Of a DNA stretch of 64,000 nucleotides, positions 1,465 to 55,837 are shown in pieces. Below the pieces are notes generated by a model. It searched no databases. It saw only the letters and a list, made by a program, of their open reading frames with translations, and had not been told where the DNA came from. This stretch comes from Bugulina stolonifera (taxonomy: Eukaryota; Bryozoa; Gymnolaemata; Cheilostomatida; Bugulidae). Location of the stretch: positions 434,001-498,000 of the forward strand of contig OW285187.1 in NCBI GenBank assembly GCA_935421135.1, read 5' to 3'. The first letter of the stretch is position 1. The number at the start of each line of letters is the position of its first letter. The translations under genes were made by a program, and so were the position numbers.

Positions 1465-4400
1465 CTTCTCCATAGATGTGAGCTCAGAGTGTACTCTATA
1501 CACATCCCCCAGGTCCACCCGGTACCTATAGTCTTTATACATACTCAGCAATTTCTTCAGTCGGGGTACTAGAGAGGTCAACTCAAGAGAATCTGGAGTT
1601 GTCTGCACTTGGTAGTCAAATTTATATGGAATACCTACGGAATTCATATTCTTTAATTAATAAATTAGTACACACGTACTATGTCTTTTAGATGACATAA
1701 TGCAGGCACATCCGAGTGTATTATATGAATGCAGTGTACTTACTCTGGCCCTTCTCCTCATCCTTATATGTAGTAAAACATCTAATCTCTGAGTGAACTG
1801 AATGATTGGATCTGTTATATGGACTTATTATCACTCCTAGGAAGTTATTTCCTCCTGCAGAGAACCAGTTCTGGAAAATTCTCTGTGAATCTATATCTAT
1901 GAAAGACATTCATCTATATAACATTATAATATAGCATGTACATCATTATATAAAAAGTACGCACATAACGTGTATGCTATGTTTGTACACAAGAGGCATT
2001 AACCTTCACTAAATACGAAACTTTGTATATGCTTTAATGTAGCAAAAACTTTGTGAATCTTCAAAAAACAAGAGTTGTCTTCTTTCCATTATGTAAGTTG
2101 TCCACTCTTATCCCTAATCTCAACATATAGACGTTTCTTATCAGGTATTTAGTATCTGTTAACCCCTGTACACAACGGTGCAATGAAGGCCAGGATTCAC
2201 CCCAGATGTTGTCATGGGGGGACAGTAACAGTATGTGATGTTCTATAGGAGTGACTGTAATGTCTGACAGTAACAACTTAGTAGTTAGCCTGATTACCTT
2301 GTTGGGAAGGGTTGGGTATAAATGTGGGGTGGGAGTGATACCAGCCCACCACCTGCAGTCCACATTGCTCTATAGTTTCTCCAGCCTCAGTCTGAGATAC
2401 TAAACAATGAATACACATTACATGATAATTCCAGTGTGCCTCCATAACATATTACAGAGAAATGGCAATGTGTCCATTGTTGGGATAGACTAGGTGCTAC
2501 CATAATACCAGTAATAGGATCAACTAGCAATGTGACCATCTAATAATTGTTATTGAATCAAAGTAAACATTATAATGACTAGTATTGTCCCACTACTGTC
2601 TCTATAGGCAATGCATGGTACCAGTCTACCCGCTACTCCTACATTCCCAAAGTACATTAAGTACTGCGTTACGCTCTGTGCTCTCCATAGCAGCAGATAA
2701 CAACTTTGACTTTATAATGGAACCATAATTATAGAGCATAACCAAAATATAAATGAAATGAGCTTTCTTGGAAAAATTTGCAGCAATTTTGGAGTTTCTC
2801 TCTTTTAGAACACGTTTACAATTCACTTCACTGAGAAAATAACTCCAAATACTTTAACAACAGCTTCTTGTCTTTTAGCTACTTTCTGCCATATTCTCAA
2901 CCTAGCAGACTAAAGGCATGGCTAATTTGCTCTCCTTAGGCTGATGGAGCCTCTTTCTGGGCTTAAACAGCGAAAACTAACTAGTCTCGCATCACCGAGC
3001 CCTGTTGTAATTGGTTAATATTAGATACAATGACTCCAATTTATTTAAGATAAATCTTTGTGATTGGCTAGATGTTACATGATAGTACTGGACTGGCACT
3101 GCCCATGGAACCGCAGCGGCAAACAATGGGGCTCTAGTAGCACAGCTCACGGCCTCTCGCATAACTGCATCATGTTTGCTTTCATGGGTTTTATAGTTTA
3201 ACCATCAGATTAAGAATAGTCCCCTCTTGAGATGCATACATTTAAGAGAAGGTAACTTCAACATGTGCATTATAAAGGCTCGGTTACACGAGAGGCAAAT
3301 TGTTCTTTTTTGGCCAACGGAGTTTCGTTCAAGAGCAAATCGCCGTTTGTTCATCTGTGAAGAGACCAACATGCTGGTATTTTCAGTCTCCGGTGTCACT
3401 GTGGTTGTTTAATGTTAAATACAATGACTCCAATTAGACTATTGATTGCAAATGAGCTGTTGGTTAGTGGCTGGATATCAATAGAGGCCACTGGTGGACA
3501 GGTGGACTGGTACTACATACTGCCTATAGAGTATTGCCAACGAACAACAAAGTTGCTCAGCCGAAGTTCACGGGCTCTCGCATACCCGAGCCTTAGTACT
3601 AGTATGTAGTATGTACCTGGGTCCATGTCACAGTGTAGAGAAGTACTGGTGGAAGAGCAAGGCTCTGCCCTCACGACTGTCAGTACTTTGCCATCTGATT
3701 CATATTTACCTCCGAGTAGACCAATAACTTCAGTCGTACACAAGTGACTGTGTACATCCATGACAACAGCAGCAGCCGATTCCAGTACCACTTTATATGG
3801 GCATATCTGTGTATGAACAGTCGGGTATATACATGTGCAAGTACATCAGTACGTACCAGAGGGTACACATCAGAGGGTACATACCAGAGGGTACACATCA
3901 GAGGGTACATACCAGAGGGTACATACCAGATGGTACACATCAGATGGTACACATCAGAGGGTACACGTCAGAGGGTACATATCAGAGGGTAGATATCAGA
4001 GGGTACACACCAGAGGGGGGTACACACCAGAGGGTACACACCAGAGGGTACACATCAGAGGGTACATACCAGAGGGTACACATCAGATGGTACACATCAG
4101 AGGGTACACGTCAGAGGGTACACATCAGAGGGTAGATATCAGATGGTACATACCAGATGGTACACATCAGAGGGTACACACCAGAGGGTACACATCAGAG
4201 GGTACACACCAGAGGGTACACACCAGAGGGTACACACCAGAGGGTACATACCAGAGGGTACACACCAGAGGGTACACATCAGAGGGTACACACCAGAGGG
4301 TACATATCAGAGGATACACACCAGAGGGTACACGTCAGAGAGTACACACCAGAGGGTACACGTCAGAGGGTACACACCAGAGGGTACACATCAGAGGGTT

Positions 4401-7400
4401 TGGGTCAAAGGGTACATATCACAGGGCATAATATAAAGATTAACTCACAAACTGGTGCTCATCGAACTCTGCACAGTTGATCAGAGATAGGTTAGTGGTG
4501 GAACTCTTGCTGCTTTCTCTACTTTCAGGCTTCGAAGGTTCCAAGACAGTGCGGGGCTTGTCATCAATTGGCCCATGCTACAATACAGACTCCAGCATAT
4601 GATCTCAGTCTACTACGTATGTTATATACTACTAGTATATCAACACACTATATATATGTTATATACTACTAGCATATCAACCCACTACGTATGTTATACA
4701 CTACTAGTATATTAACCCACTATATATATTATATACTACTAGTATATCAACCCACTATATATGTTATATACTACTAGTATACCAACCCACTACGTATGTT
4801 ATGTACTACTAGTATATCAACCCACTATATATGTTATATACTACTAGTATATCAACCCACTATATATGTTATATACTACTAGTATATCAACCCACTATAT
4901 ATGTTATATACTACTAGTATATCAACCCACTATATATGTTATATACTACTAGTATATCAACCCACTACGTATGTTATGTCTTCCGTGATCGGCTTCTGCT
5001 CCAGCAAATCCCACTTCTTAGGAGGTCGTCTACTTCTCTTACTCTAAACGTACAACAAGTTTGCCGTTGAAGTTTTACTGCAGCACCTTTGATATTGTAA
5101 GTTCTCATGCTAGTGAATGGCAACATTAACAGTGTACTGTACAAGTAAGTATATAATATACAGTGTACTGTACAAGTACATGTAAGTATATGATATACAA
5201 TGTACTGTACATGTAAGTATATAATATACAATGTACTGTACAAGTACATGTAAGTATATAATATACAATGTACTGTACATGTAAGTATATCATATACAGT
5301 GTACTGTACAAGTACATGTAAGTATATGATATACAATGTACTGTACATGTAAGTATATAATATACAATGTACTGTACATGTAAGTATATCATATACAATG
5401 TACTGTACATGTAAGTATATGATATACAATGTACTGTACAAGTACATGTAAGTATATGATATACAATGTACTGTACAAGTACATGTAAGTATATAATATA
5501 CAATGTACTGTACAAGTACATGTAAGTATATCATATACAATGTACTGTACATGTAAGTATATGATATACAATGTACTGTACATGTACAAGTAAGTATATA
5601 ATATACATAGGTTGTAAGGAGTTGTGCTCTCCCACCCCAGCATACTAGAAAGTTCAGTCTTGGAACCTACCTTCATTTGCTTCAGTTCAGCCTTTGCATG
5701 TGGGTTACTGTCCTGTAAACACAGAGAGGTAGGTAAACTATACAGAGATGTAGGTAAACTATACAGAGGTGCAGGTAAACTATACAGAGATGTAGGTAAA
5801 CTACACACAGATGCAGGTAAGCTATACAGAGATGTAGGTAAACTATACAGAGATGTAGGTAAACTACACACAGATGCAGGTAAGCTATACAGAGATGTAG
5901 GTAAACTACACACAGATGCAGGTAAACTATACACAGATGCAGGTAAACTACACAGAGATGTAGGTAAACTATATCCTTGTACCTCTGTAGGTGACCTTTG
6001 AACTTCACTCTGTGATTTAACAGCAATGTGATAGGTTGCTTCAGCTATATGCAAATGTATAGAAAACAACTTGAGTAATAAAGGAGCAATTAGAATAGAG
6101 GGGCTGCCGCACATACCCACAACCTTTAGCAAACAATAACATCTGACTCACAGGCTAATCAGTCTGATTAGCTCTATCCCATTGAGTGTGTAGATTATAT
6201 TGTTTGCATGGTTATACACGGTAATGGACAGCCCAACGTAGTAAGATAGACAGGTCAGCTACCAACCAGAGAGGAGCCAGTTGACGAGCTCAAGCTACAG
6301 TTTATACCCGTTAATGGGTCGTCTACCAGGTCACCCTGCTTGCTACGTATGAGGTAGGAACACTGGCTGCGGCTAGATATAGTACCACCATTAGACTGTG
6401 ACTTTGAGGGTGGTACCAGTGGTGTTGAGGTATTATATACAGACGCTCTACTAAACAACTCGACCAACTTGCTAAGCATGATGGGTAATAAGTGTCATTG
6501 TTGCACTAGTCATTACCGTTACTATAGCTACACTGTACTAAATATGACAACAATGGCACTGAAATATTACAAAATAATATCCATCCATGTTGAGTTTAGT
6601 TTTTAGTGTTTAATACACAGTGCTGGAGTTGTCCCACCAGTGTATGGAATAATACACAGTACTGGAGTTGTCCCACCGGTGTATGGAATAATACACAGTG
6701 CTGGAGTTGTCTCACCGGTGTATGAAATAATACACAGTGCTGGAGTTGTCCTACCAGTGTATGGAATAATACACAGTAGTGGAGTTGTCCCACCGGTGTA
6801 TGGAATAATACACAGTAGTGGAGTTGTCCCACCAGTGTATGGAATAATACACAGTAGTGGAGTTGTCCCACCAGTGTATACACATACTAAACAGTATACA
6901 AATGATATTAATAAGTAGGTTACTACATAGAAGTGGGATACTTACGACAGGCAAAGTTGATGGCCCCAATCTGCTGGAGATAAGTGTGTATTCTAGAGAT
7001 AGAGCGTACGTCACCCCTGTCAGGTATCTCACGTCTGATCTGTGTTTTACTCACGTATTCTGGTTTACAACTCTTCCTATCATAGCACACAGTGTGCATA
7101 CATGTACATTGTATATATATATATATATATATAATAGCAAACTAGATGTCTATGTATAGCATGTGTATGTGTACTGAACAAATAAAGAATCCATCAAATT
7201 AAACCTCTATAAATTTCCTTGCAAGACAAATATAACACACAGTTAGCAGTACAAGTACATGATTGTGTACTCAGGTAGCTACAGTTAGCAGTACAAGTAC
7301 ATGATTGTGTACTCAGGTAGCTACAGTTAGCAGTACAAGTACATGATTGTGTACTCAGGTAGCTACAGTTAGCAGTACAAGTACATGATTGTGTACTCAG

Positions 7401-10400
7401 GTAGCTACAGTTTGCAGTACAAGTACATGATTGTGTACTCAGGTAGCTACAGTTAGTGTCTTCGCGATCGAAACTTCAAGCACAGGCCAACTTGCTAAAA
7501 AGCTTTCGGGCATACATCCGTCATCGGGTCGCGAACAAACCAAAAGCAAATCTTCATTTATATGCAAAAAACCCAGGTGTGCCGACGAGCTAGGGATGGT
7601 TTTCTCCAGCCAAGCAAAATCCCAGGCCAATAGACGTTCGGGCCTACTTTGGAGTTTTATTTGTGACCCAGGCCGATTCAGGAGGTCGGGAAGACACTAA
7701 ATGAAGGTGACTCACCATTTCTTTACTATGAAGTTCCTGTAGTGGAGGTATCTCTCTGGAGTCTTCTTTGGTCGACCCATAAAGAACTCGGATAGAATAC
7801 GCTTCTCTTCCAGTGAAACCTTCTCCAGATCAGTGAACACATACTCTCTATCTGGTGGAGGCATCGATACCACCTCTCCCACAGAGTTCAGTATTCCATA
7901 CTCTGTCCCGTGTGTCGTCTTGTTATAGTGTGCCGTCTTAGCACTGTATGTGGTCTTGGCACTGTGTGCGGTCTCATCACTATGTATCCCATCAGTACTG
8001 CAGTTAGACTGCGATTCCCCTCTAGCTAAACTATCTAAACACAGAGAGGGTTTTGGATCCTTGCTGAGTGTTGCAGGGTCCTGAGGCATCTGGGTTATCG
8101 TAGCGGAAGGAGAGAGCAGGTTATCTCCATCAGTTACTACAAATACACAACTACATGACACAGGAAGAACTACAGCGCCACCAATAAGCATGCAGTAAAT
8201 CTAGAAATGGCAGGTTTTAGCATGTGTTTTGGGGAGTGGTTGTTGTAATACTTACTATGTATGTCCTCCTCACTCGGCGCTTCCCTATCAGACAGCAGTA
8301 ATCTAAAAGTGAGTCATATGATTAGCACAGTGAGTGGCTCAGTCAGCATAGTCCAAGGAGATATAGAGAGATGCACCAGTGCACATTCCCCTGCACACCT
8401 GAGGGGTATTATGCTGGGCATGTACACAACAGAACATTTTTGATTGGTTGTAAACTGCTGGATTGCTGCCAATAATGTACATGTCGTAGAGTCATTACTG
8501 TCTTCGACCAATGAGCAAACAGCAAATAGAGAGGAAATAGCACTAACCTGTGACATGGAGTGGTGTGATTAGGGGCCGCTAGAAGGGTACCATCCCAGGG
8601 TGTCAGATCACTAGATGCAGGTACTTTGGGAGACGGCTGCTCAGCAGACAAGGATGAGCCGTTGGCAGATAGGACCGGAAGGTTGGTAGTCTGAGGTTCC
8701 TCGTTGACAGTCACAGTGGGATCCACAGGCTATAAATTGCAGAGATTTGTCAAATAATCTGACATTTACATTAAATCAAGTAGAGGAACATGTAGAGACT
8801 ACCAATCTAGGCTGGATTTAACTAACCTGTTGCACATGTACAGGACTTTCTTTACTGACACTAGTAGCAGGTGATTCTTTACTGACACTAGTAGCAGATG
8901 ATTCTTTACTGACACTAGTAGCAGGTGATTCTTTACTGATACTAGTAGCAGATGATTCTTTACTGACACTAGAGGCAGGTGCTTCTTTACTGACACTAGA
9001 GGCAGGTGCTTCTTTACTGACACTAGTAGCAGGTGCTTCCGATGAAATAATGTTCTGTTTAGCAAGCACATGCTTCAGGTGGTCTCTCTTCTGTCTGATG
9101 CACAGAAATACAAAAATAATAAAATTCAGATAACCTTACCAGTAGAGTATATAATACTAGTCTCACCTTGTGGTTATATATAACAAGAGTAGAATATATA
9201 ATACTAGTCTCACCTTTTGGTTATATATAACAAGAGTAGAGTATATAATACTAGTCTCACCTTTTGGTTATATATAACAAGAGTAGAGTATATAATACTA
9301 GTCTCACCTTTTGGTTATATATAACAAGAGTAGAGTATATAATACTAGTCTCACCTTTTGGTTATATATAACAAGAGTAGAGTATAATATAATACTAGTC
9401 TCACCTTTTGGTTATATATAACAAGAGTAGAGTATATAATACTAGTCTCACCTTGTGGTTATATATAACAAGAGTAGAGTATATAATACTAGTCTCACCT
9501 TTTGGTTATATATAACAAGAGTAGAGTATATAATACTAGTCTCACCTCTTGGTTATATATAACAAGAGTAGAGTATATAATACTAGTCTCACCTTTTGGT
9601 TATATATAACAAGAGTAGAGTATATAATACTAGTCTCACCTTTTGGTTATATATAACAAGAGTAGAGTATAATATTATAATACTAGTCTCACCTTTTGGC
9701 TGCATTCACACATCTCTTGAGTAAGTGATCCGATCGGCTCCTCTTCTGTAATGCAATATTAGCATGTAATTGGTAGCACCTGATTGGTCAATTACAGATA
9801 CAACAAACATTATGATTGGTGCAGTGGATGAAAAGCAAGCACATACAGTGTGATGATAGTATGATTGACACATGTACAACCCTACCTGTTGCTATGGCAA
9901 CATGGGAGCAAGACAAACACTCACCTTCAAATAAGGTACTCCAAATCTCTCTACCTCTTCCGTAGTTCTGAATGGTAGAAGTGTAGCAACTTTATCCCAG
10001 CACGCACCATATATTTCCTAGAGAAAGAGAGAATGAATAGACACACTAATAATAGAAATGGTGCTACTGGAACTAATAAACATACAGACAAACAGATGTT
10101 ACAGTCTCCTCAGTATACTGTTGTCTAAGACTGGCCAATGTCCAATTACTCAAAGAGTTCTACATCAACCAATGAATAAAGTAAGTAATAAACTGGGAGA
10201 CAACCCTGCACTTACAAGTCCCTTTTCAAAGATGGCCGTCTCACTATCTGTAAGTAGGACCTTTCTGCTTGTCGCTTTCATCGCTTTACTAGATTTCTCG
10301 GAAACTAGCTTCCTGTCTTCATCCAGTAAATCAATCACTAGTTTTCTACTTTCTATGTCAAGGTCATCCAGCTCTGCCTCATGTTGCTGTATTAGATATA

Positions 10401-10871: not shown

Positions 10872-11034
10872 TGATGAACTATCTGTCCGAGACACTTTTG
10901 GTACGACGCCGTCACAATAGATTTCACAAGAGCTGCAATGAATCGGCAGCATGTATGAGTTATGAGTGTCAAGCTGTGCTTATCTGTGCCGCCTCACAAG
11001 CATCTTACTACTAAATACTAATGTATTCCTAGTT

Positions 11035-11135
11035 TAGCCTCACAGGCATTTTACTACTAAATACTAGTGTATTCCTAGTTTAGCCTCACAGACATCTTAC
11101 TACTAAATACTACTGTATTCCTAGTTTAGCTGTAA
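11035..11135. repeat. 46-bp tandem triplication
   Basis: Three copies of a unit with TTACTACTAAATACTA, TGTATTCCTAGTTTAGC and CTCACAGGCA/CTCACAGACA lie upstream of the first visible MYSM1 exon. No function is evident. Confidence 0.85.
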
Positions 11136-11329
11136 AACAATCATAGTTGCCATCAGTAGACCAGATGGAGCCGTTGGAACACAGTAGGTAGAAAAATTGC
11201 AACAAGAAAAGACCACATACCATTACCTCCAAACATTTTTATTCATAATCACAATGACCATGAACTGATTACAGGCCCTGGGGTTCAATGGACAGAAGAG
11301 AGTGAATGGTACATTTGAATTTGGCCCAG

Positions 11330-11418
11330 GTCGGCGTGTTCGCAACCTTGTGACAGAAGTGGCCTGGAAAAGCTTTTAGCATGTTGGCATGTGCCTGAAA
11401 TTTATGACACAAAGACAC
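11330..11418. mobile_element. Decayed end of a GTGTCTTC-family MITE, copy 3
   Basis: The stretch with GTGTTCGCAACCTTGTGAC, then TTTTAGCATGTTGGCATGTGCCTGAAA and AAAGACAC, aligns with the right end of the element at 17685-17948 (GTGACGGTAGTG, TTTTAGTAATTTGGCCTGTGCCTGAAA, GAAGACAC) with many substitutions. The left end is not identifiable. Confidence 0.6.
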
Positions 11419-19514: not shown

Positions 19515-19520
19515 AATAAA
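19515..19520 (+). terminator. Candidate polyadenylation signal AATAAA for the NCKAP5-like gene
   Basis: AATAAA followed by an A/T-rich tract lies about 700 bases after the stop codon. A T/G-rich stretch follows within about 80 bases. Position fits, but transcript evidence is lacking. Confidence 0.4.
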
Positions 19521-20214: not shown

Positions 20215-20290
20215 AATTGTCCATCAGTGGGATTCGAACTCGTGTCTCTATGCATGGAGACCAAGCACTCTACCAATTGAGCTATCAAAT
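20215..20290 (-). mobile_element. tRNA-like sequence, probably a SINE head
   Basis: On the minus strand ATAGCTCAATTGGTAGAGTG matches a tRNA D-arm and A box, and GAGTTCGAATCCC matches a T-arm and B box, followed by a T run. The acceptor arms do not pair and the T stem is broken (GAG against CCC), so a functional tRNA gene is unlikely. Confidence 0.6.
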
Positions 20291-42100: not shown

Positions 42101-45100
42101 ATATATTACTGTACCTGTGCTATGGTGTATATTAGTAATATGAGTATATGCATTGGCTCCGTGCACATGAATATATTACTGTACCTGTGCTATGGTGTAT
42201 ATTAGTAATATGAGTATATGCATTGGCTCCCTGCACATGAATATATTACTGTACCTGTGCTATGGTGTATATAAGTAATATGAGTATATGCATTGGCTCC
42301 GTGCACATGAATATATTACTGTACCTGTGCTATGGTGTATATTAGTAATATGAGTATATGCATTGGCTCCGTGCACATGAATATATTACTGTATCTGTGC
42401 TATGGTGTATATTAGTAATATGAGTATATGCATTGGCTCCGTGCACATGAATATATTACTGTACCTGTGCTATGGTGTATATTAGTAATATGAGTATATG
42501 CATTGGCTCCGTGCACATGAATATATTACTGTATCTGTGCTATGGTGTATATTGGTAATATGAGTATATGCATTGGCTCCGTGCACATGAATATATTACT
42601 GTATCTGTGCTATGGTGTATATTAGTAATATGAGTATATGCATTGGCTCCGTGCACATGAATATATTACTGTACCTGTGCTATGGTGTATATTAGTAATA
42701 TGAGTATATGCATTGGCTCCGTGCACATGAATATATTACTGTACCTGTGCTATGGTGTATATTAGTAATATGAGTATATGCATTGGCTCCGTGCACATGA
42801 ATATATTACTGTATCTGTGCTATGGTGTATATTAGTAATATGAGTATATGCATTGGCTCCCTGCACATGAATATATTACTGTACCTGTGCTATGGTGTAT
42901 ATTAGTAATATGAGTATATGCATTGGCTCCGTGCACATGAATATATTACTGTACCTGTGCTATGGTGTATATTAGTAATATGAGTATATGCATTGGCTCC
43001 GTGCACATGAATATATTACTGTACCTGTGCTGTGGTGTATATTAGTAATATGAGTATATGCATTGGCTCCGTGCACATGAATATATTACTGTACCTGTGC
43101 TATGGTGTATATTAGTAATATGAGTATATGCATTGGCTCCGTGCACATGAATATATTACTGTACCTGTGCTATGGTGTATATAAGTAATATGAGTATATG
43201 CATTGGCTCCGTGCACATGAATATATTACTGTATCTGTGCTATGGTGTATATTAGTAATATGAGTATATGCATTGGCTCCGTGCACATGAATATATTACT
43301 GTATCTGTGCTATGGTGTATATTAGTAATATGAGTATATGCATTGGCTCCGTGCACATGAATATATTACTGTACCTGTGCTATGGTGTATATTAGTAATA
43401 TGAGTATATGCATTGGCTCCGTGCACATGAATATATTACTGTATCTGTGCTATGGTGTATATTAGTAATATGAGTATATGCATTGGCTCCCTGCACATGA
43501 ATATATTACTGTATCTGTGCTATGGTGTATATTAGTAATATGAGTATATGCATGTAATCAGGGTACCATCATGTACATAGTACAATGTACATATTACATT
43601 GTAGTAGCAGAGCATACAATCGCTGCTTCCTGCTCCAGCAATGGCTGCTATGCCTAGCTCTTAATTCTATGTTGAAATGTGATTCATATTATGGTGTTTC
43701 TGTTGTGCAGGCACCTGTCCCTTCCTGACAACTGAATATCTAAATATAAATCCAATGAAAATGAAACTAATCTGCCTGCCTGTCACTTCTCCACGCCTCT
43801 TGTTTCTCACCAAATACCTCACTTTTGATTTTCCAATTTTTTTGGGATAACAAAATGGTTGTGGTGAGGATGTCAGATTATGCAACCATTGCAATTTATA
43901 CATTTTTTGTGTCAACCTTGTTGTTACAGTGTAGTGTAGGTATCACCACAGCTGTTATACATACATGTATATCTATATATTTGTAAGAGAAAGCAGAGTG
44001 TTGGTAGCAACTGATTGATCAATGGCATTATTATGCAAACTTTTAAATTAAAAATCTGCAGCTTAATATCATTGTAATTACAAGCTATTTATGTATAGAA
44101 AATTCTTGCAATTTGTGACAATCATTGAAGAATTATGTCCCATTAGAGCAGTAGGCAGTAGAGCCGCTCTTCTAGTTGGCAGATTTGCATATGAAAGAGA
44201 TAGTGTTATCATCAGAACACCTGTATGCAGATCCGTGGATATGGAGACTAGCTCATATATAATATTATATAAATATAGATACACACTCACTCATATATTA
44301 TATTATACTATATTATATTATATCATATTATATTAATATATTATATTATATTATATGCATATACATGTACATGTAGATACATACACACTCATATATTATA
44401 TTATATTATATTATATTATATTATATTATATTATATTATATTATATTATATTATATTATATTATATTGTATTGTATTGTATTGTATTATATTATAATATT
44501 ATATACATATCGATACATACTCACTGATATATTATATTATATTATATACATATAGATACACACTCACTGATATATTTAACCTGATGGATGTGGATATGAA
44601 TGGGCTGCTGTCCAGAGAGGAGTTTAACATGTACAGTGTGAGAACAGGGGAGGACACTGTGGGAGATGATGAATGGGAGATAGTGAAAGGTAAGTGCTGA
44701 CGTTACGTTACCCTACGTATGTATATCTTACTCACCCACCAGTAGCCTCCACCATCACTTGAATACTAGTAAGTACCGGTCAGGTCTCTGGGGTTCCCCG
44801 TGGGTACGGTGACATAAACTTGGCAGTAGATCCCCCACCCACCCACTCCTACATAGCCACACATTTGATAAACCCTTTACTGCTCAACGAAACCCTAAAG
44901 TGCAGATGTGGGCTGTGCGTGTCACATGCTACCCCAGTCAGTTATTCACATACATGTCATTAAAGGTGTGAGCACACTAGGGGCGAAAATGGAGCGAAGC
45001 GGAATGCTGTGCGGTGCTGCGTTCGCGTGGCACAGAGCACACGTTCGCGAATGCGTGGGGCGATTCATATTCAGGTCAACATGACTGGCCAATGAGACCT

Positions 45101-48100: not shown

Positions 48101-51100
48101 CGCATCGCCATAGCTCGCTGATATGGCTCTGTGATTTTTCTAATGTCCTCTCCTATTTCCTCCCCAAACCGTGAGCATTCATCTGGAGGAATAATATTCT
48201 TCTCAGCTTCTGTAAGCTGGGCTAGCTGGGCAGCTAATGCTAACTCAAAGTCACTCTCTTTGGCTTTCCTCTTTGATGGCCGGGGCTGACAACTATTTGA
48301 GAGTGGAGTTTCTGAAATAGTAGAAGTAGAAGTCGAAGCTGGAGTAGAGCATCTACTTGAGTGGTCGTCATCAATAGATGGAGGGCTGCTGGGGGTAGTT
48401 ATTAGGTTCGATTTGGTGCTAGAAACATCAAATGTGGAAAGGTGGAAAGCAACAATTCATAGTTAGACAATGTCATTACTAGGCAGAAAATAAGCATTAA
48501 GAACTTTAGAAGAAATTAGTGTTTTTCTGCTTACGTTTTGCGTGATAGATAGGGTATCAGCCACTCCATGTGCTTATACCAGAGCCATGTCGGCTCTGCA
48601 GTGGCAGCAGCTCCACTTGGAGTCTTCTCCAGATGATCCTTTTTGCGCTTCACAAAAGTGTCCCTTAAGTTCTTCCACTTTTTTTTAGCGTCTGTAACTG
48701 TTGAATTATAAAGAATTATGTAAAATTCAGAGTAATACTAGCAACAAGATACATCATACATTTGGCAGACTCTAGCTATTTTGGTTCAGCAATGTGAATG
48801 TAATGAATTTGTCCAATAAGTATGTTCAATGAAACTGCATATTAAATTTAGTTTCATTACGTAAATATCATCGATCATTGATTTATTTGATTGTGACTAT
48901 TTTATAGATGGTCCACAACAATCCAAGGAATTATTAACATAGATGTGGAATTGTTGAATATATTATATATATTATCATTGATTGAAAACGAACATCTGGA
49001 ACAATGGCAAGTGAGTTAATAAATTAGGTAGTAGGCTAAATTTTTTTCATTCAATAAATCAACTCAAATCCAATATTATTTAAAAATATCTTAAATTAAA
49101 TAATTAATATACGCTAGCTACATACATACCAGAAAGATCGCATTCTAACGCTACTTGATTCCAGTTGTTCAAAACAACATTGCTCTCTTTGTACTGGCTA
49201 TGAGAGTGGTCATACAGAACTGACCTTTCTCTCACACTGTTGATCAGCTTCTCTTCGATAGATGCCATTTCGATATTCGTAGAAAATTTAAAGTTGAAAG
49301 TAGAGAATTTAAACTGAAGTTGATAATGTGGAAAACTGAGTACCGGTAGTGATTAGAATTGAAAACCATGGACTCGTTAGTGCCGAAGTGGGGAAATTGA
49401 ACTTGCGACCAATCAGAAACAAGCGGCACGCTTGCATATCCAACACAGCTTGGTAGACGCGAAATCAACGCGATTCCGTCCGCTCAGCCTGTCGCGCGGC
49501 AGATTCGCCCGCTTTCGCCCCTAGTGTGCTCAACCCTTAATGCTACATTCACATTGCCGTTTATACTAACTACTAGCGGCAGCGGCCAACGCTAACCACA
49601 ACTATATTATATAGTGACATGCTCCAGTGAGCGGTAGGGGTCAACAAGTTCAACAAGCTAAACTTTAAACCCGCCGCTAACTAACACGTGCTAGCTATAG
49701 TATAGTAATAGTTAACCACATTGTGGTGAGCGTTGGCCACTCGTCACTAGTAGTTGGTATAAACGGCAATGCGAATGGACCATTAGTTAGCGGCAGGGTT
49801 TAAAGTTCAGCATGTTGAACTCGTTGACCCCTACCGCTCACTGGAGCATGTCACTATATAATGTAGTTGTGGTTAGCGTTGGCCACTCGCCGCTAGTAGT
49901 TAGTATAAACGGTAATGTGAATGGACCATTAGATCAATGCAAGGTCTAGAAATCACCTCCCCTATATCCACAGTGCTCTATACAATATTGGTGATAGTAC
50001 CTGTAATTATGGGAGTTGTAGCCCCCCTCCCCTCCCACCAAGTGTCCAATAAAGCACTAAAGGCTACTAAATATCCTGCTCTGCCCTGCAGTTCCCCTAA
50101 CCTGTACCTAAACAGCCGATCACACCGGCACTCAGGTACACTCCAGGTACACTTAGATGTACACTTAGATGTACACTCCATGTACATATATGTATGTAGG
50201 AAAGACCTACTTGACTGACATACCAACTGCTCTTAGTATCCCATAATTCACCCTCATATCTACACTATGTTGGCGTGTCAAGAGCAGACAATATGTACTG
50301 CTGTACATTATAATACACTGAGCTGTCAAGTTCTCAAACTAGAGTGAACGGGCAGCCCTATCTTGTATTGTCATCATTGAGGAGAAAGTAGAGACCTAAT
50401 CCCCTCTACAAAGTGTCCAGCACACCTCAGACCAAAAGTGGACTGCACCTACTCAACAGGAGAAGATGTTTTATTCCTTTCAATCTATCACTTTCAGGTT
50501 GTGTCGAGAGACACTTAATATTATAATATATCACAACAGGTGAATGATACACTTTCATGCATAGCTACCCTGTGTGATGTAGCTAATAGCCTGTGTACCA
50601 GGCATACACTGTGTGATGTAGCAAATAGCCTGTATACCAAGCATACACTATTGTAGAGAATGCTGAATTGAAGCAGGGTGAACTCACATGCAAGGGCTTC
50701 ATTCAGCTCATTGAATTGGAGGCAGACGATGCAGCTGGTGACACTGATGACCTTTGGCTTGCCCTTGAGTCACTCGGTTATGACTCATCACTAGTACAGA
50801 ATCAAGTAAGGCTCTAGTGCTGCTATGACTCATCACTAGTGCAGAGTCGAGTAAGACTCTAGTGCTATGACTCATTACTAGTGCAGAGTCAAGTAAGACT
50901 CTAGTTCTATGACTCATCACTAGTGCAGAGTCAAGTAAGACTCTAGTGCTATGACTCGTCACTTTTGCAGAGTCGAGTAAGACTCTAGTTCTATGACTCA
51001 TCACTAGTGCAGAGTCAAGGTAAATTATTCTGATTGCCGGTAGAGCGTTACATGTTAAGCGCTGCATTGTACCTGGATAAAGTCGGCCTGCTAGTAAAAA

Positions 51101-54100
51101 GATTGACTCATATCAGAGCCATCTGTTTATTGTCAAAGTGTTGCAACACCACATGACCCCATTGAAACCGAAGCAGCGGTCTACTGCAGTTTCAGGTAAC
51201 ACAGCAGGACAAATACGCAATGTAATGTATACTTTTAAAAAGATCATTTGATACAAGATGTATCATTGATAGGACTTGCTCAGGTGCACCTGTAGCCTCA
51301 GCTTCTATCAGACTCCCCGGGTATAGATGCGTTTCTATATTAGATAACTAGCTGACGGCTGAGATGGGCCAGCTGATGTTTTTTAATAATTTCCTGTTTT
51401 TAACCTTTTTGAACATTAATATATACTGTACTTACTCTAGATATCAATGTGTCTGTAGGCGTACCCATTCACCATTGAAGTGGGAGTGGAGAGTGACCCC
51501 ACTGCTACTCTAACCATACAGTCAGGGCTAGTCACTCCAAAATCCCGATCTCTACAGCTTGCTACGAAGGAGGCCTACATGGGAAAAGGGGTGAGACATC
51601 ATTACTATAGTACTAGATATAATAGACATCATCGCTATACTACCAAATATAGACATCATTGCTATACTACTAGATATAGACATCATTGCTATACTACTAG
51701 ATATAGACATCATTGTTATAGTACAGGATATAGACATCATTGTTATACTACCAGATATAGACATCATTGCTATTACTGCATTATTGTGTGCCGATATGCA
51801 GGAGCTGCTGTCACGTGATCAACGCTGCCGCTCTGCTAAATCTTCTGGAAATGATAAGGATGTGAAGATATACTGTTATGAGACGGAGTTTATGGCAGCT
51901 GTACTTGTGGATAATAAGGTAGTGCGCACTGTATAATACATGTACATATATATATATATGTGTAGGCCTATGTATATTCCATGTACATGGTGTAGTAGTA
52001 GTAGAAGTCCAATGTTACAGTAATAGACTTATAATAGGATTGTTATTGAGTGGTTACATGCAATCACCTCCATTAATCTCATTATGATGCTAGTTATATT
52101 AGGTAATAATTCTAACATCATACTAAACTAAACTCTCTATTAGTAACTACTATACATACTGTACATACTGTACATACTGTGTATCTACCCCCAACCCACC
52201 CAGCTACACATCTTATTGGTTTATAATATTCTAATTATTATCACATAATATTGTTTTGTTACATTGTTTCAAGATTACACACTACTGTATACTGTACTAT
52301 AATATACTCATCTTGGTCATAAGTGAATCAACAGTGACATTGTCTAATCCAGACACTCTGTCTGCCCCTTGGGCCTTAGTCTATAAACTGTATAACTCTC
52401 AGGCTATCCTGTTTCTGCTCCACCCCTGTCTACACAACATTCCATTACCCTGTACATTTATATTATTTAGTTGAATATTAAATTTGTCCACTTTATGTCT
52501 TATTCAATCTGAACACCAACAATGCCTGCGTGACCCCTGACCCTTGTATTCATACATGGTGATACTGTGATAGGCACAACTATTAATAGTTGTAATACAG
52601 TATTATAATATTAGAGAGTTACTTTTTATGTATTATTCTTCTTGCAAGGAATTTTATTTATGAGCAGCCGGGGACTTGGTTCCATATCTGTAGATATATC
52701 CCACCTCTGACTGGGCCACCTCTATGGCACCTTATTGCCTAGCGCAGTGGACATAACATGCTACCTCTACACCATCTCAGCAGCCCTTATTACTGTCCAC
52801 TGTACTGTCCACTGTGCTGTCCACTGTACTGTCCACCGTGCTGTCCACTGTACTGTCCACTGTGCTAGGTAATACGGTGCCATCAGAGTGTTGGGTTAAA
52901 GTTCAGACCCCTGTCAGGGATGAGGAACCAAAAAATAAATTTTCATGCAAAAAAATAAAACATAATATACACGTAATATCTATATACTTTGTAATATACT
53001 GTGTAGCATACACTGTAACATGCTCTTTAGTATAAGAAACTTGCTTAATTCAAGCTCCAAGAGACCGCCATAATTGGTTTGAATTAGGTTTGAGTTTGAA
53101 TTGTAAAATCACTTCACTTCTATGAAACCATTTATATGTATATAGTAGTGCTCAGCAGGGACCAAGGCTACCAGTTTGAACTAACCAAGTTGTTTAATTA
53201 TCCGAGGTTGAATTAAGCAAGTTCCACTGTATATGACATGTACATGACATCCCAATGTTGATCTTTATGCATGTACATGTATGTATGTACATGTGCATCA
53301 ATATGGTGATTGTCTCACTGACCAGTGGTCACCTTCTAACCTACGTGTAACTGACCCCTCATTAGCCTATATATCTCACATAATCACCATAATTATTATT
53401 CATATCTGATTACAATACATTTACATAGAGTATGTAGTAGTATTAACAGTATATACAATTATTATGCTATAACATTTCCACTATTACATGTAGTACTACA
53501 AACCTGGGTCGATATTGCACAGTATTGGGCTCCTTTGACAGCACATATATATACTCTTTGACAGTACATATGTATACTCTTTGACAGTACATATGTATAC
53601 TCTTTGACAGTACATAGTTATGTATACTCTTTGGGCACCATGTAATACATGTAGTACAATGTAGACTGTGGATCCCTACCTCCCATTCTATTTATTTATT
53701 TATTTCTTCCAAGCTAAGGGTCACCAAAGTTCAGAAATTGTTTACCACTTATGACACGCATGTCACTATTAATACCACCACTAAATATACAACCATAAAA
53801 TATACATAAATTATTTATATTAATGTGTATTTTATTGAAATGGGGAGATGTACTGTAGATATCTTCCTACCTTGTTTACATGCACATAAAATTACTCACA
53901 TAGTTTCATAGACAACCTGGGCTCTCTAGTGTCACCTTCTACCTTATTTGTGACTCCATGCGTGGAATAGCTTTGGAGATGTACTTGAACTGGTTTAAAT
54001 AACTTTTCTTTCAAGTTTCTCCTGTTTACATTAGGTGGATGTAGTATGACTCCAGGGGGTGTGTTCAGTATGCCATGAGGTATACACCTATACACTGTAC

Positions 54101-55837
54101 ATCTATTACTCAGTATACAAGGAGATAGTACACTAGTCTATAATTAGTATGGTGGACCCAGCTTCACTCTCCAACTTGAGTAGATAAATAATAATTTATG
54201 AATTGTCAAAATTCCTGAATGCTATCCTTCAATAGACTCATTTATTTCATACTACACTTATATGCCTGTGTAGTGTACCATCATTTCATAGCCTGTGTAC
54301 CATCATTTCATAGCCTGAGCTAAGGTCACCTCACACCCCCCAAACTGTACACTTATACATGGTTATTAATACTATCATACCATAGCCTGAGGACATCTCA
54401 GCCCCTCCCCCCCCAACCAATAAGGAAACAACTTCAATACAATAACCTTCCACTATTTCAAATGATGGGCATACTAGCAGCACCTCTTGGGCTAAACAGG
54501 TGATGTCCACCTTTCCTATGAGATGTGATGAAACCGTATTATTTGGTGTAATCCTCTCAGCATACCACATGTTTGGGTTTGGTATACACTGCCATGTGTT
54601 CTGTCCGTCTGTCCGTCTGTCTGTCTGTATTGTACATGATGGCACTTTGTCTACACTTGTACATGATGGCACTTTGTCTACACTTGTACATGATGACACA
54701 TAGTCTACACTTGTAGTCTTTACTTTGTAGCTGCCCAGTAGGGTGACAGTACACTTGGACTGCTCTGCAAGTAAGAATATCAAGTCAAACAGGAACTCTC
54801 TGGTCGAAGTGTTTGCTGTGCCGGCTAATACAGCCAAGGTAGGTACATGTGTATGACTGATATAGACGTCTAACACATTACTGGACAAATGGTAGCATAC
54901 TATATTGTTAATCCAGTATTTTCTCTTCCATTCACAAAATCCATTATCATATAAATATTTCCTTATGTTAGAATTTTAATGAGTTATTTCCGTATAAGCT
55001 TGGCTATCTGTGTGATTAGGGCAGAGATTATCTCTAATAGTTTATTTATTCTCTCTAATGTGTACACATTATACTGTATGTACCTGCCATTTACCTGCCA
55101 TGTATGTAGTAGTAGTAGTAATATTCAGTGTAGTAGCTCTACCACATGATTGTAGAGAATTATTAATTGCCAATTATTAAATTTCAAAAGTGTGTATAAT
55201 ATCAGATGTAGGAGCTTTAGTGCCTTCACACGGTTTCAAGAGTAGCCTTGGCTCTCAATTTCCATGAATGTAGGCTGTTCCTGACTTGCACTATAGAGTT
55301 GTGTTCTCTTGCCCACACTGAACCAGCTAAAATTATCCCACGCTGCTTTGAATGGAACTAACTCTGTTTACAAGACACAATTCTCTGCTTCCTGTCGTAG
55401 AGAGAAATTTGCTGAATTTCAGCTGTTTGCATTGAAATAGTACAGCAGCACAAATCTAGTGATTTTACAGAACTTACTGATATTACCGTAAGATCACTTT
55501 TGCCAGTTTTTGACTTTTCCTGGTAGTAAACTATGTAGATGTAGCTTCTTCATAACAGATAGCCTTGGGTTCTGATTATACCATTGTGTATCTGTAGATA
55601 GCCTTGGGTTCTGATTATACCATTGTGTATCTGTAGATAGCCTTGGGTTCTGACTATACCATTGTGTATCTGTAGATAGCCTTGGGTTCTGACTATACCA
55701 TTGTGTATCTGTAGATAGCCTTGGGTTCTGATTATACCATTGTGTATCTGTAGGCTGTGTGTCATCTCCTTCCTAAAGATGAGAGTAAAGAATGGTTAGT
55801 CTCCTGTATAGAGAAGGAACTGTTAACTTCTAAGTAA
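21108..55837 (+). CDS. EFCAB7: EFCAB7 orthologue, EF-hand calcium-binding protein
   Basis: Eighteen coding exons: 21108-21336, 24934-24999, 25903-26048, 26960-27046, 27594-27924, 28181-28213, 28351-28398, 30617-30772, 31600-31725, 32672-32775, 33058-33303, 35781-35950, 44556-44689, 50657-50805, 51459-51590, 51802-51918, 54731-54838, 55754-55837. Together 2466 bases, 821 codons plus stop, all phases consistent. Family landmarks: CRAAYVSVVKGS, ALQNAGRNPTQ, RGEKMSDEEV, EWRKMSRRGMFYVEDNGE, LTKEFK-YTLTDIF, DLWLALESLGYDSSL and a C-terminal SKEWLVSCI. Three canonical EF loops are intact: DINGDGFISHSE, DENRDGKLDYKE and DVDMNGLLSREE. In mammals EFCAB7 works with IQCE to tether the EVC-EVC2 complex at the cilium base for Hedgehog signalling. 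The extra length over the about 630-residue mammalian protein is a Ser/Pro/Arg-rich linker in exons 5-10. Most of the 35 kb span is satellites and transposons in introns. Confidence 0.95.
21622..22766 (-). mobile_element. hAT DNA transposon remnant with 8-bp target duplication
   Basis: The left end TAGGGCCGGAACGAATCC and the inverted right end TAAGGCTGTGACAAATCC are imperfect TIRs. The 8-base duplication ACTTCATC flanks them exactly at 21614-21621 and 22767-22774. The element is 1145 bases, far too short for a full hAT, and keeps only the N-terminal part of the transposase. It lies in EFCAB7 intron 1, antisense. Confidence 0.93.
22030..22485 (-). pseudogene. hAT transposase N-terminus with BED zinc finger, truncated and frameshifted
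   Basis: From 22485 the reading frame gives a BED-type finger: SPVWQYFRLHKKK, then CIKC, then HLKTVHD, supplying the two Cys and two His. It meets a stop near 22198. In a shifted frame the sequence continues as AITRDIALAVALDMQPISWV and VEDKGFRRLVKQLEPRYTMP, the conserved start of the hAT core in ZBED-like transposases. The RNaseH-like catalytic domain and dimerisation region are missing, so it cannot be active. Confidence 0.88.
23455..23630. repeat. ACATAAACATACATT minisatellite, first block
   Basis: Loose repeats of ATTACATAAACATACATGTA precede the SINE cluster in EFCAB7 intron 1. The same 15-base motif resumes at 24385-24565 on the other side, so the SINEs seem to have landed in or next to one array. 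Confidence 0.85.
23636..23897 (-). mobile_element. tRNA-derived SINE (family C), antisense copy
   Basis: Read on the minus strand it has an A-box-like TGGTGTAGTGGTAGCATG and a perfect B-box core GGTTCAAACCC. After these come GGGACTGGTATTTTCAT, TTGCTAAAAATACAT and the terminal GGCCAAACCCCCTAA. It is head-to-head with the plus-strand copies that follow. Confidence 0.85.
23899..24389 (+). mobile_element. Two sense SINE family C copies forming a fold-back with the preceding copy
   Basis: An end fragment (TTAGGGGGTTTGGCCATTTT, 23899-23944) leads into a 5'-truncated copy that starts at TGTAGTGGTAGCATG (about 23946) and ends near 24122. A second, longer copy has its 5' leader (GTGCAGTTCGCTCAGAGCAT; CACTGGTGAAGCTTCC) and tRNA head to 24389. 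Together with 23636-23897 this gives inverted repeats of more than 180 bases that would form a strong hairpin in RNA. Confidence 0.82.
24389..24565. repeat. 15-bp ACATAAACATACATT minisatellite, second block
   Basis: About 11 perfect or near-perfect 15-base units. Because 15 is divisible by three, a His/Lys/Thr frame and its antisense stay open; neither is a gene. Confidence 0.93.
25022..25896. repeat. 45-bp minisatellite, about 19 copies, ending in an EFCAB7 acceptor
   Basis: Units contain ACTAGCACTACTCCTATTGT then TATCATATAATAAACCATGTGTCCC and are nearly identical. The final unit reads ACTAGCACTACTCCTATTGCAG and becomes the acceptor of exon 3 (25903). The 45-base period keeps three frames open for 280-370 codons on the two strands, which could mislead gene finders. 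Confidence 0.97.
26040..26480. repeat. About 38-bp degenerate repeat carrying an EFCAB7 donor
   Basis: From the exon end ATGACAACC and donor GTATGC at 26049, copies of GCTATGACAACCGTATGCAT plus TATATATAATATAGTGTT follow about ten times with growing divergence. The last exon bases are part of the repeat, and divergence increases away from the exon. Confidence 0.9.
26712..26962. repeat. 27-bp minisatellite carrying an EFCAB7 acceptor
   Basis: Eight units (GTATACTTTATATTGTAGAG plus TTAGTTA) precede exon 4. Each contains TATATTGTAGAG, identical to the true acceptor TATATTGTAG and exon start AGAG at 26960. Confidence 0.95.
27394..27607. repeat. 28-bp minisatellite carrying an EFCAB7 acceptor and exon start
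   Basis: Seven units (GTATGTGTAACTACAGTTCA plus GTAACACG) run into exon 5. The true acceptor ACTACAG and the exon's first bases TTCAGTAACATGGT match the unit with one substitution. Using an upstream copy would shift the frame to an early stop. Confidence 0.95.
28568..28674. repeat. 15-bp GACCAGCAAGGAGTT repeat, about 7 copies
   Basis: Short, clean units in EFCAB7 intron 7, followed by a duplicated CCACCTCGGAGTATCCAGCG at 28718-28756. No function seen. Confidence 0.92.
28785..28957 (-). other. Possible antisense exon of an unrecognised gene in EFCAB7 intron 7
   Basis: The minus strand has an open, non-repetitive stretch of about 57 codons containing ISNQLITSLFKYMAFNPIQT and HSSLLKLLKMGLVHKSN. 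It ends at a good donor (ACGCAG then GTAATT). No start ATG or clear acceptor was found, and I do not recognise the protein. It may be a nested gene exon, a transposon fragment or chance. Confidence 0.25.
29290..30400. repeat. 22-bp GAGGAACACGACTGTTTAGACT minisatellite, split by a MITE
   Basis: About 12 units before and 9 after the insertion at 29555-30201. Units vary at CACGAC/CATGAC/CAGGAC. Taking out the MITE and one TAA restores a continuous array. Confidence 0.95.
29555..30201. mobile_element. TAA-flanked MITE inserted in a minisatellite
   Basis: This 647-base element has TIRs AGGTGCGTTTACACTACACC (left) and AGCTGCATTTACACTACACC (right, inverted). TAA is duplicated at 29552-29554 and 30202-30204. 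TWA duplications and AGG ends fit a PIF/Harbinger-type MITE. Subterminal CAACTCC/GGAGTTG repeats extend both ends. No transposase. Confidence 0.88.
30426..30603. repeat. 18-bp TAGTCACATGACACATGG minisatellite before EFCAB7 exon 8
   Basis: About nine units. The array ends about 15 bases before the acceptor TATTACCAG at 30616. CACATG/CATGTG-like words repeat every unit. Confidence 0.93.
30938..31255. repeat. 29-bp pyrimidine-only minisatellite, about 11 copies
   Basis: Units such as CCTACCCTCTCCTCCAGCCT plus TCCTTCTCT make a nearly pure C/T strand about 320 bases long, in EFCAB7 intron 8. Such polypurine-polypyrimidine mirror-like tracts can adopt triplex (H-DNA) structures. Each unit contains CTCCTCCAG, an acceptor-like word. 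Confidence 0.95.
31928..32222. repeat. 25-bp minisatellite with GTACATGTATAC palindrome
   Basis: About 12 units (GACCTGTCTGGTGTACATGT plus ATACA) in EFCAB7 intron 9. Units differ by CTCCAG/CAAG and ATGTAAGC. Several overlapping open frames here are artefacts. Confidence 0.95.
32818..33038. repeat. 30-bp minisatellite before EFCAB7 exon 11
   Basis: Seven units (TAGTACCTGATATCATATTA plus TAGTACCAGC) containing palindromic GATATC in most copies, ending about 20 bases before the acceptor at 33057. Confidence 0.94.
33322..34395. repeat. 37-bp minisatellite, about 29 copies, with acceptor-like words
   Basis: Units contain ATCTCTACTACAGTATTGTA then TGATCATACTACAATAT. Every unit has a pyrimidine-rich TCTCTACTACAG that resembles a 3' splice site, and the near-palindrome GTATGATCATAC. 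It fills the first kilobase of EFCAB7 intron 11. Confidence 0.96.
34396..35780. other. Single-copy part of EFCAB7 intron 11
   Basis: No exon or mobile element recognised. Small features are a 19-base repeat (GTGCCTAACACAGAGCTA type) at 34970-35045, a GAGAGAGAGAGA run near 35112, and a triplicated ACTACGGCCTGTTGT near 35610-35655. Confidence 0.6.
35955..36150. repeat. TAG/CAG trinucleotide repeat at an EFCAB7 donor
   Basis: Imperfect (GTA/GCA)n trinucleotides begin a few bases after the donor GTAAGTCA at 35951 and are broken by three AACTGAGTAGTAG segments. The TAG words are read as intronic sequence only. Confidence 0.93.
36535..37196. repeat. 32-bp minisatellite, about 20 copies, EFCAB7 intron 12
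   Basis: Units TATACCTGCATGTATAGTGT plus ATATATTACAAG, with TGCAAG and TGTATG variants. A 134-codon minus-strand frame is produced by the repeat and is not a gene. A smaller duplication (TATAATATACGCCTACATGT) lies just before, at 36389-36500. Confidence 0.95.
37387..43553. repeat. 70-bp satellite array, 88 copies, EFCAB7 intron 12
   Basis: The word CATTGGCTCC occurs at 37391 and then every 70 bases exactly up to 43481, with no insertion or deletion in 88 units. Variation sits mainly at three sites: GTATCTG/GTACCTG, ATTAGTAATA/ATAAGTAATA and CCGTGCAC/CCCTGCAC. Seven units have the last variant (units 12, 16, 36, 60, 70, 79, 88). Units contain palindromes ATGCAT and GTGCAC. No reading frame is maintained. 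Confidence 0.98.
44275..44555. repeat. TATTA microsatellite with copies of an EFCAB7 acceptor and exon start
   Basis: A (TATTA)n tract at about 44385-44510 is flanked and broken by AGATACACACTCACTCATAT, ATACATACACACTCATAT and CGATACATACTCACTGATAT. These copy the true acceptor and exon start (ATATAG then ATACACACTCACTGATAT) at 44556. Confidence 0.92.
45843..47672 (+). CDS. PIF/Harbinger (HARBI1-like) DDE transposase
   Basis: Exons 45843-46623, 47031-47226 and 47369-47672 join in phase to 426 codons plus stop. The protein starts with a basic segment (RRSIAIRRKKIRLLRL), then VHPVNKNR, typical of HARBI-like N-termini. Next come a helix-turn-helix-like FKTLAILFRLGQSTV, then the DDE core: first Asp in FPNCIGAIDGKHC, second in FIYVDVGTSGRWSDGG, then GDEAFPLKTWLLRPIPG, and the Glu in RRTIENAFGILVARW, ending with HNYL. 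The family cuts and pastes at TWA targets and needs the partner Myb/MADF protein for nuclear import and TIR binding. The frame is open further 5', but the first ATG is at 45843. Intron 1 hosts a SINE. Confidence 0.93.
46742..46992 (+). mobile_element. tRNA-derived SINE (family B) inside the transposase intron
   Basis: GGGAGCAGCCGTGGCCTAGTGGTAAG gives a tRNA head and A box (split here: GCCGTGGCCTAGTGGTAAG at about 46748), and CCCAGATTTGATTCCTGT a diverged B box. The body ends with TTTTTTATGTAAAAATAG. It sits in the 407-base first intron of the Harbinger transposase, a nested insertion that leaves both splice sites intact. Confidence 0.75.
48025..49268 (-). CDS. Harbinger-associated MADF/BESS DNA-binding protein
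   Basis: Exons 49268-49130, 48697-48535 and 48418-48025 join in phase to 231 codons plus stop. The N-terminus is a MADF (SANT-like) domain: EKLINSVRERSVLYDHSHSQ, WNQVALECDLS, AKKKWKNLRDTFVKRKKDH and WLWYKHMEWLIPYL. A Ser/Thr/Pro linker follows (TPSSPPSIDDDHSSRC; QPRPSKRKAKESD). The C-terminus looks like a BESS domain (EPYQRAMAMREIRDVIFKYRF). In the family this second protein binds transposon ends and helps the transposase enter the nucleus. Its stop faces the transposase stop across about 350 bases. Confidence 0.92.
49541..49932. mobile_element. Fold-back MITE abutting the Harbinger element
   Basis: The left part (CATTCACATTGCCGTTTATA; ACTAGCGGC; GTGACATGCTCCAGTGAGCG; ACTTTAAACCC) is repeated inverted at the right end (CGCTCACTGGAGCATGTCAC; AGTATAAACGGTAATGTGAATG). 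A third terminal copy (AAACGGCAATGCGAATGGACCATTAG) sits in the middle, so it looks like two nested or joined copies. The Harbinger TAA target lies exactly at its left border. Its own target duplication is unclear. Confidence 0.75.
50780..51020. repeat. About 42-bp repeat copying an EFCAB7 exon end and donor
   Basis: Exon 14 ends TATGACTCATCACTAGTACA then GAATCAA and donor GTAAGG. Five units after it repeat CTATGACTCATCACTAGTGC then AGAGTCAAGTAAGACTCTAG, so 26 or more exon bases plus a donor recur in each. It is the clearest case in the window of exon sequence captured in an intronic array. Confidence 0.95.
51594..51775. repeat. 27-bp minisatellite at an EFCAB7 donor
   Basis: Units AGACATCATTGCTATACTAC plus TAGATAT start four bases after the donor of exon 15 (GGG then GTGAGACATCATT). 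About six copies. Confidence 0.93.
52640..52920 (-). mobile_element. Decayed SINE family C copies with internal CTGTCCACTGT expansion
   Basis: CTATGGCACCTTATTGCCTAGCGCAGTGGACATAACATGCTACC-like sequence (key word TGGCACCTTATTGCCTAGCG at about 52722) matches the family C head on the minus strand. TAATACGGTGCCATCAG and CAGACCCCTGTCAGGGA at about 52870-52920 match the head on the plus strand. Between them a CTGTCCACTGTA/G microsatellite has grown from the tRNA-like CACTGTGCTAG motif. Confidence 0.65.
53028..53229. mobile_element. pogo-like MITE, copy 1
   Basis: About 200 bases with ends AAACTTGCTTAATTCAA and TTGAATTAAGCAAGTT then CCACTG, flanked by TA. The interior (GACCGCCATAATTGGTTTGA; TGCTCAGCAGGGACCAAGGC) matches the element at 63570-63763 in inverted orientation. 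Confidence 0.75.
55556..55753. repeat. 41-bp minisatellite ending in the last EFCAB7 acceptor
   Basis: Five units (AGATAGCCTTGGGTTCTGAT plus TATACCATTGTGTATCTGT). Every unit ends TGTGTATCTGTAG, the same as the true acceptor at 55753, so each upstream copy is a candidate alternative 3' splice site. Confidence 0.95.

Follow-up and report, generated by a model that had tools for sequence, protein, structure and literature searches.

Minisatellites spanning splice junctions in neighbouring genes of the bryozoan Bugulina stolonifera

Introduction

Tandem repeats that span exon-intron boundaries have been described in amphioxus under the name 'mirages'. They were found in the Adh3 and globin genes, their origin was called unclear, and they were described as possibly general in cephalochordates (PMC3087553, in the passages drawn on here). 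The same passages state that they do not disturb regular splicing (PMC3087553). Troponin C and PGBD5 were added to the list in another report (PMC3902484, likewise known to us from excerpts). In human genes within segmental duplications, minisatellites with units of about 30 bp lie at exon-intron boundaries (PMC2812944). As described in the excerpted text, these change how recent primate paralogues are spliced and give rise to new introns there (PMC2812944), whereas the models of the conserved bryozoan genes reported here keep their reading frame. Tandem duplication has also been proposed as a route of intron gain (Rogers 1989; Zhuo 2007; Gao and Lynch 2009, as cited in the parts of PMC3087553 and PMC3488318 used here).

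Here we examined a window of 64,000 nucleotides in the bryozoan Bugulina stolonifera, positions 434001-498000 of chromosome 1 (C1), about 0.5 Mb from the chromosome start. An earlier note on this DNA had pointed to minisatellites containing splice sites and had known of no described mechanism that predicts them. The structure itself is already known from amphioxus, and the bryozoan arrays match it; the comment on mechanism stands in so far as the amphioxus authors also call the mechanism unclear. As in the excerpted accounts of Adh3, BflGb6, BflGb9, troponin C and PGBD5, the unit spans the boundary, donors and acceptors are both involved, and many but not all of the copies carry the AG or GT.

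Unlike those cases, the present ones come from a bryozoan, number eight in three neighbouring genes, and are known from genome sequence alone. The units are 21-47 bp long, compared with 10-72 bp in Adh3, 150-160 bp in the globins, and 60 and 108 bp in PGBD5, going by the same excerpts. In human CBS a 31-bp VNTR lies across exon 13 and intron 13, and in IFI6 (6-16) a 12-bp minisatellite carries splice donors. These VNTRs also contain a splice junction, but they are single loci. In the literature searched, the matches listed included none that described mirages in bryozoans.

Results

Gene models in the window

Four genes were modelled, EFCAB7, MYSM1, an NCKAP5-like gene and a P450 gene (start at 61628), with 46 introns in total. 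Rfam and tRNA scans were empty. EFCAB7, on the forward strand, had 18 exons with GT-AG borders, which joined into one open frame. Its best protein match was from the bryozoan Watersipora subatra, with 56% identity across 49% of the query. Twelve of the 17 junctions were gapless in this alignment when read by eye, including 26048, 27594, 44556 and 50805. According to the alignment, 33143-33235, at first modelled as an intron, is exon. Exons 11 and 12 were thus merged into 33058-33303 after the alignment, for which the query protein had been without that stretch.

The NCKAP5-like gene (13001-18813, forward strand) had eight exons encoding 895 aa in one open frame. A search with a 206-residue stretch gave four matches altogether. 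The Watersipora orthologue was 69% identical over that stretch and gapless at the junction between exons 3 and 4, and Nck-associated protein 5 of fish and octopus matched more weakly. MYSM1, on the reverse strand, contained SWIRM and JAB domains and matched vertebrate MYSM1; its last exon falls to the left of the window. The phase across its intron 6448-6945 was not closed, and therefore the frame past this intron, donors 4969 and 1465 included, was followed separately for each exon.

Arrays at splice junctions

Eight of 60 intronic arrays crossed a junction, five at donors and three at acceptors (Table 1). Each contained at least 7 exon bases (range 7-27). The earlier note had listed 11 junctions as part of a repeat unit. 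Eight of these lay within an array together with exon bases, but of the other three, 55754 shared only its AG with the array, 26960 was reached by a degenerate copy only, and 25903 lay 3 bp beyond the array. The degenerate copy at 26960 matched from -14 to +2, and none of 500 shuffles matched as well. By gene, the two MYSM1 introns and one NCKAP5-like intron of that note (which had allowed one or two for the latter) were recovered; its figure of at least eight EFCAB7 introns came down to five, plus one that includes the AG but no exon base.

Table 1. Tandem arrays at, near and away from splice junctions (window coordinates; exon bases are those included in the array).
Position	Strand	Unit	Gene and feature	Relation of array to feature	Basis
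4618..4977	-	35 bp, 10.2 copies	MYSM1 donor 4969	crosses, 9 exon bases	TRF, gene model
9141..9699	-	47 bp, 11.7 copies	MYSM1 donor 9693	crosses, 7 exon bases	TRF, gene model
14488..14667	+	21 bp	NCKAP5-like exon 3 donor (exon end 14500)	crosses, 13 exon bases	TRF, gene model, Watersipora orthologue
26040..26522	+	38 bp, two merged TRF rows	EFCAB7 exon 3 donor (exon end 26048)	crosses, 9 exon bases	TRF, gene model, Watersipora alignment
27382..27608	+	28 bp	EFCAB7 exon 5 acceptor (exon start 27594)	crosses, 15 exon bases	TRF, gene model
28134..28187	+	27 bp, only two copies, exact	EFCAB7 exon 6 acceptor 28181	crosses, 7 exon bases	TRF, gene model
44294..44576	+	43 bp, AT-rich	EFCAB7 acceptor 44556	crosses, 21 exon bases	TRF, gene model, Watersipora alignment
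50779..51019	+	42 bp	EFCAB7 donor 50805	crosses, 27 exon bases	TRF, gene model
55557..55753	+	39 bp	EFCAB7 last exon acceptor 55754	ends exactly at AG, no exon base	TRF, gene model
25026..25899	+	45 bp	EFCAB7 exon 3 acceptor 25903	stops 3 bp short, AG outside array	TRF, gene model
26719..26941	+	27 bp	EFCAB7 acceptor 26960	stops 18 bp short	TRF, gene model
1..1460	-	23 bp	MYSM1 donor 1465	begins about 70 bp left of window, ends 4 bp from donor	TRF, gene model
17952..18072	+	25 bp	NCKAP5-like acceptor 18077	ends 4 bp before acceptor	TRF, gene model
51594..51773	+	27 bp	EFCAB7 exon end 51590	begins 3 bp into intron	TRF, gene model
63480..63537	+	30 bp, two copies	P450 exon 2 end 63474	begins 5 bp into intron	TRF, gene model
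8848..9039	-	27 bp, multiple of three	MYSM1 exon 8827-9094	wholly exonic	TRF, gene model
7928..7985	-	18 bp, multiple of three	MYSM1 exon 7716-8136	wholly exonic	TRF
-2982 to -2793 (L030:7018-7207)	-	24 bp	MYSM1 stop codon, coding end -2805	across stop codon	no splice site involved

Further arrays had an edge within 8 bp of a junction without crossing it, at 1465, 18077, 51590, 63474, 50657 and the MYSM1 acceptor 5713. Arrays were wholly exonic in two cases in 9,119 exonic bases, both with periods divisible by three. No array spanned both ends of its intron, and nearly filled introns kept 26-46 bp free of array at one end. Sixteen of 45 introns contained no array; these 16 had a median length of 188.5 bp.

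Two observations on introns were made by the way. A near-copy of the end of EFCAB7 exon 5 and its donor was noticed by eye in the following intron, at 27985-28018, as a non-adjacent duplicated splice site. A single intron held 88 copies of a 70-bp unit, with 98% matches, over 6.2 kb (37385-43553).

Chance expectation in the window

For the counts, TRF rows with a score below 50 or a period below 9 were left out, including a TAG microsatellite 8 bp from donor 35950, as were the P450 introns beyond the fourth. Under a null that scattered the grown arrays randomly within introns, 0.48 of 58 arrays were expected to touch or cross a junction, and nine did so (P = 2.5e-10). Since an array grows from a single unit, what matters is the position of the founding unit in the intron before growth. 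A second null therefore placed the founding unit uniformly over the intron plus its borders. Reconstructed without their arrays, the 46 introns had a median length of 256.5 bp, as against a median of 24.5 bp for the unit.

In the first version of this founder-unit null, crossing by eight of 58 arrays compared with 9.65 expected from the array-free intron lengths (P = 0.85), or 3.07 from the full lengths (P = 0.009). In a refined version, three transposon-like stretches, picked by eye, were subtracted from the intron lengths. Crossing by eight of 60 arrays then compared with 7.3 expected when calculated per intron (P = 0.45) and 4.8 when pooled (P = 0.10). Where a minimum of intact intronic splice signal was required, 5.6 and 3.3 were expected (P = 0.16 and 0.014). 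With arrays scoring at least 100, eight of 44 crossed, where 2.8-6.8 were expected (P = 0.005 to 0.36).

The size of the excess over chance thus hinges on the null chosen. The crossing counts were near the founder-unit expectation in most variants, which suggested that the crossings alone do not call for a special cause. The earlier note had held that the arrays do more than merely sit in introns. This was borne out against randomly placed whole arrays, but not, in most variants, against randomly placed founding units.

The distance from array edge to junction, which that note had proposed to compare with random placement, gave a different picture in the window. Under the founder-unit null, 14 of 60 arrays had an edge within 5 bp of a junction (5.0-9.5 expected, P = 3e-4 to 0.05) and 21 of 60 within 20 bp (8.2-13.5 expected, P = 2e-5 to 0.004). 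For the arrays scoring at least 100, it was 20 of 44 within 20 bp (6.3-12.4 expected, P = 6e-7 to 0.002). In this window, array edges thus remain moderately over-represented in the 20 bp next to junctions.

Arrays in other parts of the genome

For comparison, we took a block from the interior of chromosome 1 (5.0-5.1 Mb), with five predicted genes, 41 introns and 14 arrays. Exons here had to be predicted with a self-trained gene finder of our own making. One retraining fused neighbouring genes and a later version over-split them, with some exons of a few bases, so that some exon borders in this sample are rough. The counts drew on these five predictions, leaving aside those in the rest of the block and in the blocks on contig 2 (C2). 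One of the five was tested and is GPAT-like; of the other four, we take one to be PPM phosphatase-like and three to be angiotensin-converting-enzyme-like.

One of the 14 arrays crossed a junction (0.87 expected) and one had an edge within 20 bp (2.1 expected). When weaker arrays were added, two of 20 crossed (1.0 expected), and three edges lay within 20 bp (2.7 expected). In the one clear crossing case, the unit measured 39 bp and lay across a donor in the GPAT-like gene.

Four complete introns with five arrays came from a gene for a dynein heavy chain (C1:302 kb), whose exons were located via a Pfam model. None of these crossed (1.8 expected); one edge was within 5 bp (2.3 expected) and two within 20 bp (3.4 expected). 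The exon borders of this gene combine the Pfam match with the output of the gene finder and our own reading, which departs from the gene finder for the exon at 2496 of L031. By our reading, a fifth, incomplete intron contained a 27-bp array carrying the acceptor. It was left uncounted because its full length is not known.

Splice-junction arrays thus occur outside the window too, and the edge excess was not repeated in these 19 arrays, a sample that could miss a twofold effect. In the 104 kb surrounding the window, arrays made up 29% of the sequence (24-kb repeat described below counted), and in 30 kb near the C2 start 48%, one of three 10-kb pieces there being all array. In two interior 100-kb blocks, they made up 5% and 7%. 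This suggested that the region of the window is minisatellite-prone, much as is reported for human subtelomeres (PMC7608644).

Do duplications start at junctions?

The edge excess in the window, strongest in the high-scoring arrays, would be expected if duplications started preferentially at or near exon-intron junctions, for instance through repeated AG/GT-like microhomology of splice sites with GTA/TAG-rich introns or through a break linked to transcription or splicing. A start at junctions was one of the two origins offered by the earlier note. On the other hand, the arrays within 25 bp of a junction had their edges spread between -27 and +22 bp and not gathered at the junction, and the excess was repeated neither in the 14 arrays of the 41 predicted interior introns nor in the five dynein arrays. 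The window had been chosen for looking unusual, and one array straddles a stop codon instead.

The share of exon in the crossing units ranged from 15% to 64% and was compatible with a uniform distribution (KS test, P = 0.20, n = 8). This suggested that the ends of the duplications are not tied to the junction. With the wholly exonic arrays and the near-random crossing counts in addition, a start at junctions is not clearly supported, and we regard it as rather unlikely. A narrower proposal, drawn from the edge counts within 20 bp, is that bryozoan genes towards chromosome ends gain tandem duplications preferentially up to about 20 bp from a splice junction, beyond the opportunity offered by short introns. 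Splice sites or their surrounding sequence would then be weak hot spots for the birth of minisatellites. This appears to us about equally doubtful.

Are splice signals in the arrays selected?

The other origin offered was selection for arrays that carry splice signals. These might serve, for instance, as spare donors, acceptors or pyrimidine tracts by which splicing would stay robust as introns expand. The arrays that end at or just before acceptors 25903, 55754 and 18077 would fit this. Among nine arrays, with their nine authentic copies counted, the GT or AG was intact in every copy of six. In total, however, 54 of 65 copies kept the dinucleotide, which is about as well as the neighbouring bases were kept, and in one array only four of 11 copies did so. 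The 16 introns free of arrays also speak against such a benefit. This proposal is likewise without clear support, and we consider it very unlikely.

Are the splice sites placed correctly?

The junctions rest on gene models and not on transcripts, and true junctions outside the arrays would remove the phenomenon. The MYSM1 donor 4969 is exposed in this respect, lying in a poorly conserved stretch behind the unclosed phase; the gene finder placed it at 4966, 3 bp further into the array. The gene finder also missed acceptor 44556, putting a start at ATG 44584, but the Watersipora protein was identical across 44556. With one open frame through 18 EFCAB7 and eight NCKAP5-like exons, and Watersipora proteins gapless at 14500, 26048/26960, 27594, 44556 and 50805, a general mis-assignment is highly improbable.

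Are the arrays relics of intron birth?

That the introns were born by tandem duplication of exon sequence, as the amphioxus authors proposed for globins (PMC3087553, in the part used here) and as a unit with exon bases and a splice site would allow, is hardly credible for this locus, where the EFCAB7 intron 26049-26959 has two different arrays, one towards each end. Intron gain by tandem duplication resembles the present case in that the duplication holds a splice site, but it needs both intron ends in the unit. We rejected it, as none of the arrays runs from one end of its intron to the other and the unit hence does not supply both donor and acceptor.

Duplication and mobile elements nearby

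About 24 kb from window position 45430 onward, including the 3' half of EFCAB7 and the P450 gene, are repeated directly downstream (C1:479430-503219 versus C1:503309-527729). The aligned stretches of the two copies were free of mismatches and differed by a single insertion of about 620-630 bp plus two gap bases; the copies joined in a run of GGGGTTT repeats. This is either a very recent tandem duplication or an assembly duplication. With no mismatch, the second copy carries no information on array lengths, and it was left out of the array counts.

The duplication begins inside an insertion in an EFCAB7 intron (44964-49537). The insertion has inverted ends, recognized by eye, and contains two genes on opposite strands, one of them transposase-like; it resembles a Harbinger-type transposon. 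Two short elements, at 7457-7700 and 17684-17951, are similar to each other, with matching ends (gtgtcttcgcgac...), and lie beside or inside minisatellites; they appeared MITE-like by eye. To the left of the window, a frame of about 1300 aa (L030:523-4428), open as predicted, has similar flanks near 187 and 4439. From its look, we assume it to be a Copia-type retrotransposon.

Discussion

The reading we favour is that these are minisatellites of the mirage type, born at near-random positions in short introns, and that copies straddling a junction survive since splicing can ignore the extras. We give it a probability of roughly 0.68. The starting point is what was observed: the arrays and the gene models, the straddling, the unit phase, the exonic and stop-codon arrays, and the near-random crossing counts.

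Tandem duplications of short stretches, usually about 20-45 bp, would arise nearly at random in this minisatellite-prone stretch near the chromosome end. We infer that the first duplication is made by slippage or microhomology, after which some duplications may grow through slippage or unequal exchange. As the introns were short before array growth, a randomly placed unit would often straddle an exon-intron junction. Such a duplication would keep one complete junction beside the intact exon, namely the outermost copy. If the spliceosome uses this outer copy, the extra exon bases are spliced out as part of the intron, leaving the protein as it was, so that straddling arrays could persist in the same way as intronic ones. 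Use of the outer junction and the neutrality of the other copies are likewise our inference. The copy at the junction would be held by selection, and the remaining copies would drift.

The gene models built on the outer copies gave one open frame for EFCAB7 and for the NCKAP5-like gene, and an unclosed one for MYSM1. Wholly exonic arrays, by the same reasoning, would survive only when in frame, and arrays at the stop codon would run into untranslated sequence.

Splice-junction minisatellites, which we found reported mainly from amphioxus, thus recur in another animal phylum. Judging arrays by the position of the founding unit in the array-free intron, and not by that of the grown array, provides the right null for such cases. 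A chromosome-scale assembly and RNA reads (ERR10123683; PMC10213821, in the portion consulted) make the question countable. An excess over this null genome-wide, if true, would suggest that exon borders are a hot spot of tandem duplication; otherwise, mirages would be a side effect of introns being short and splicing being tolerant.
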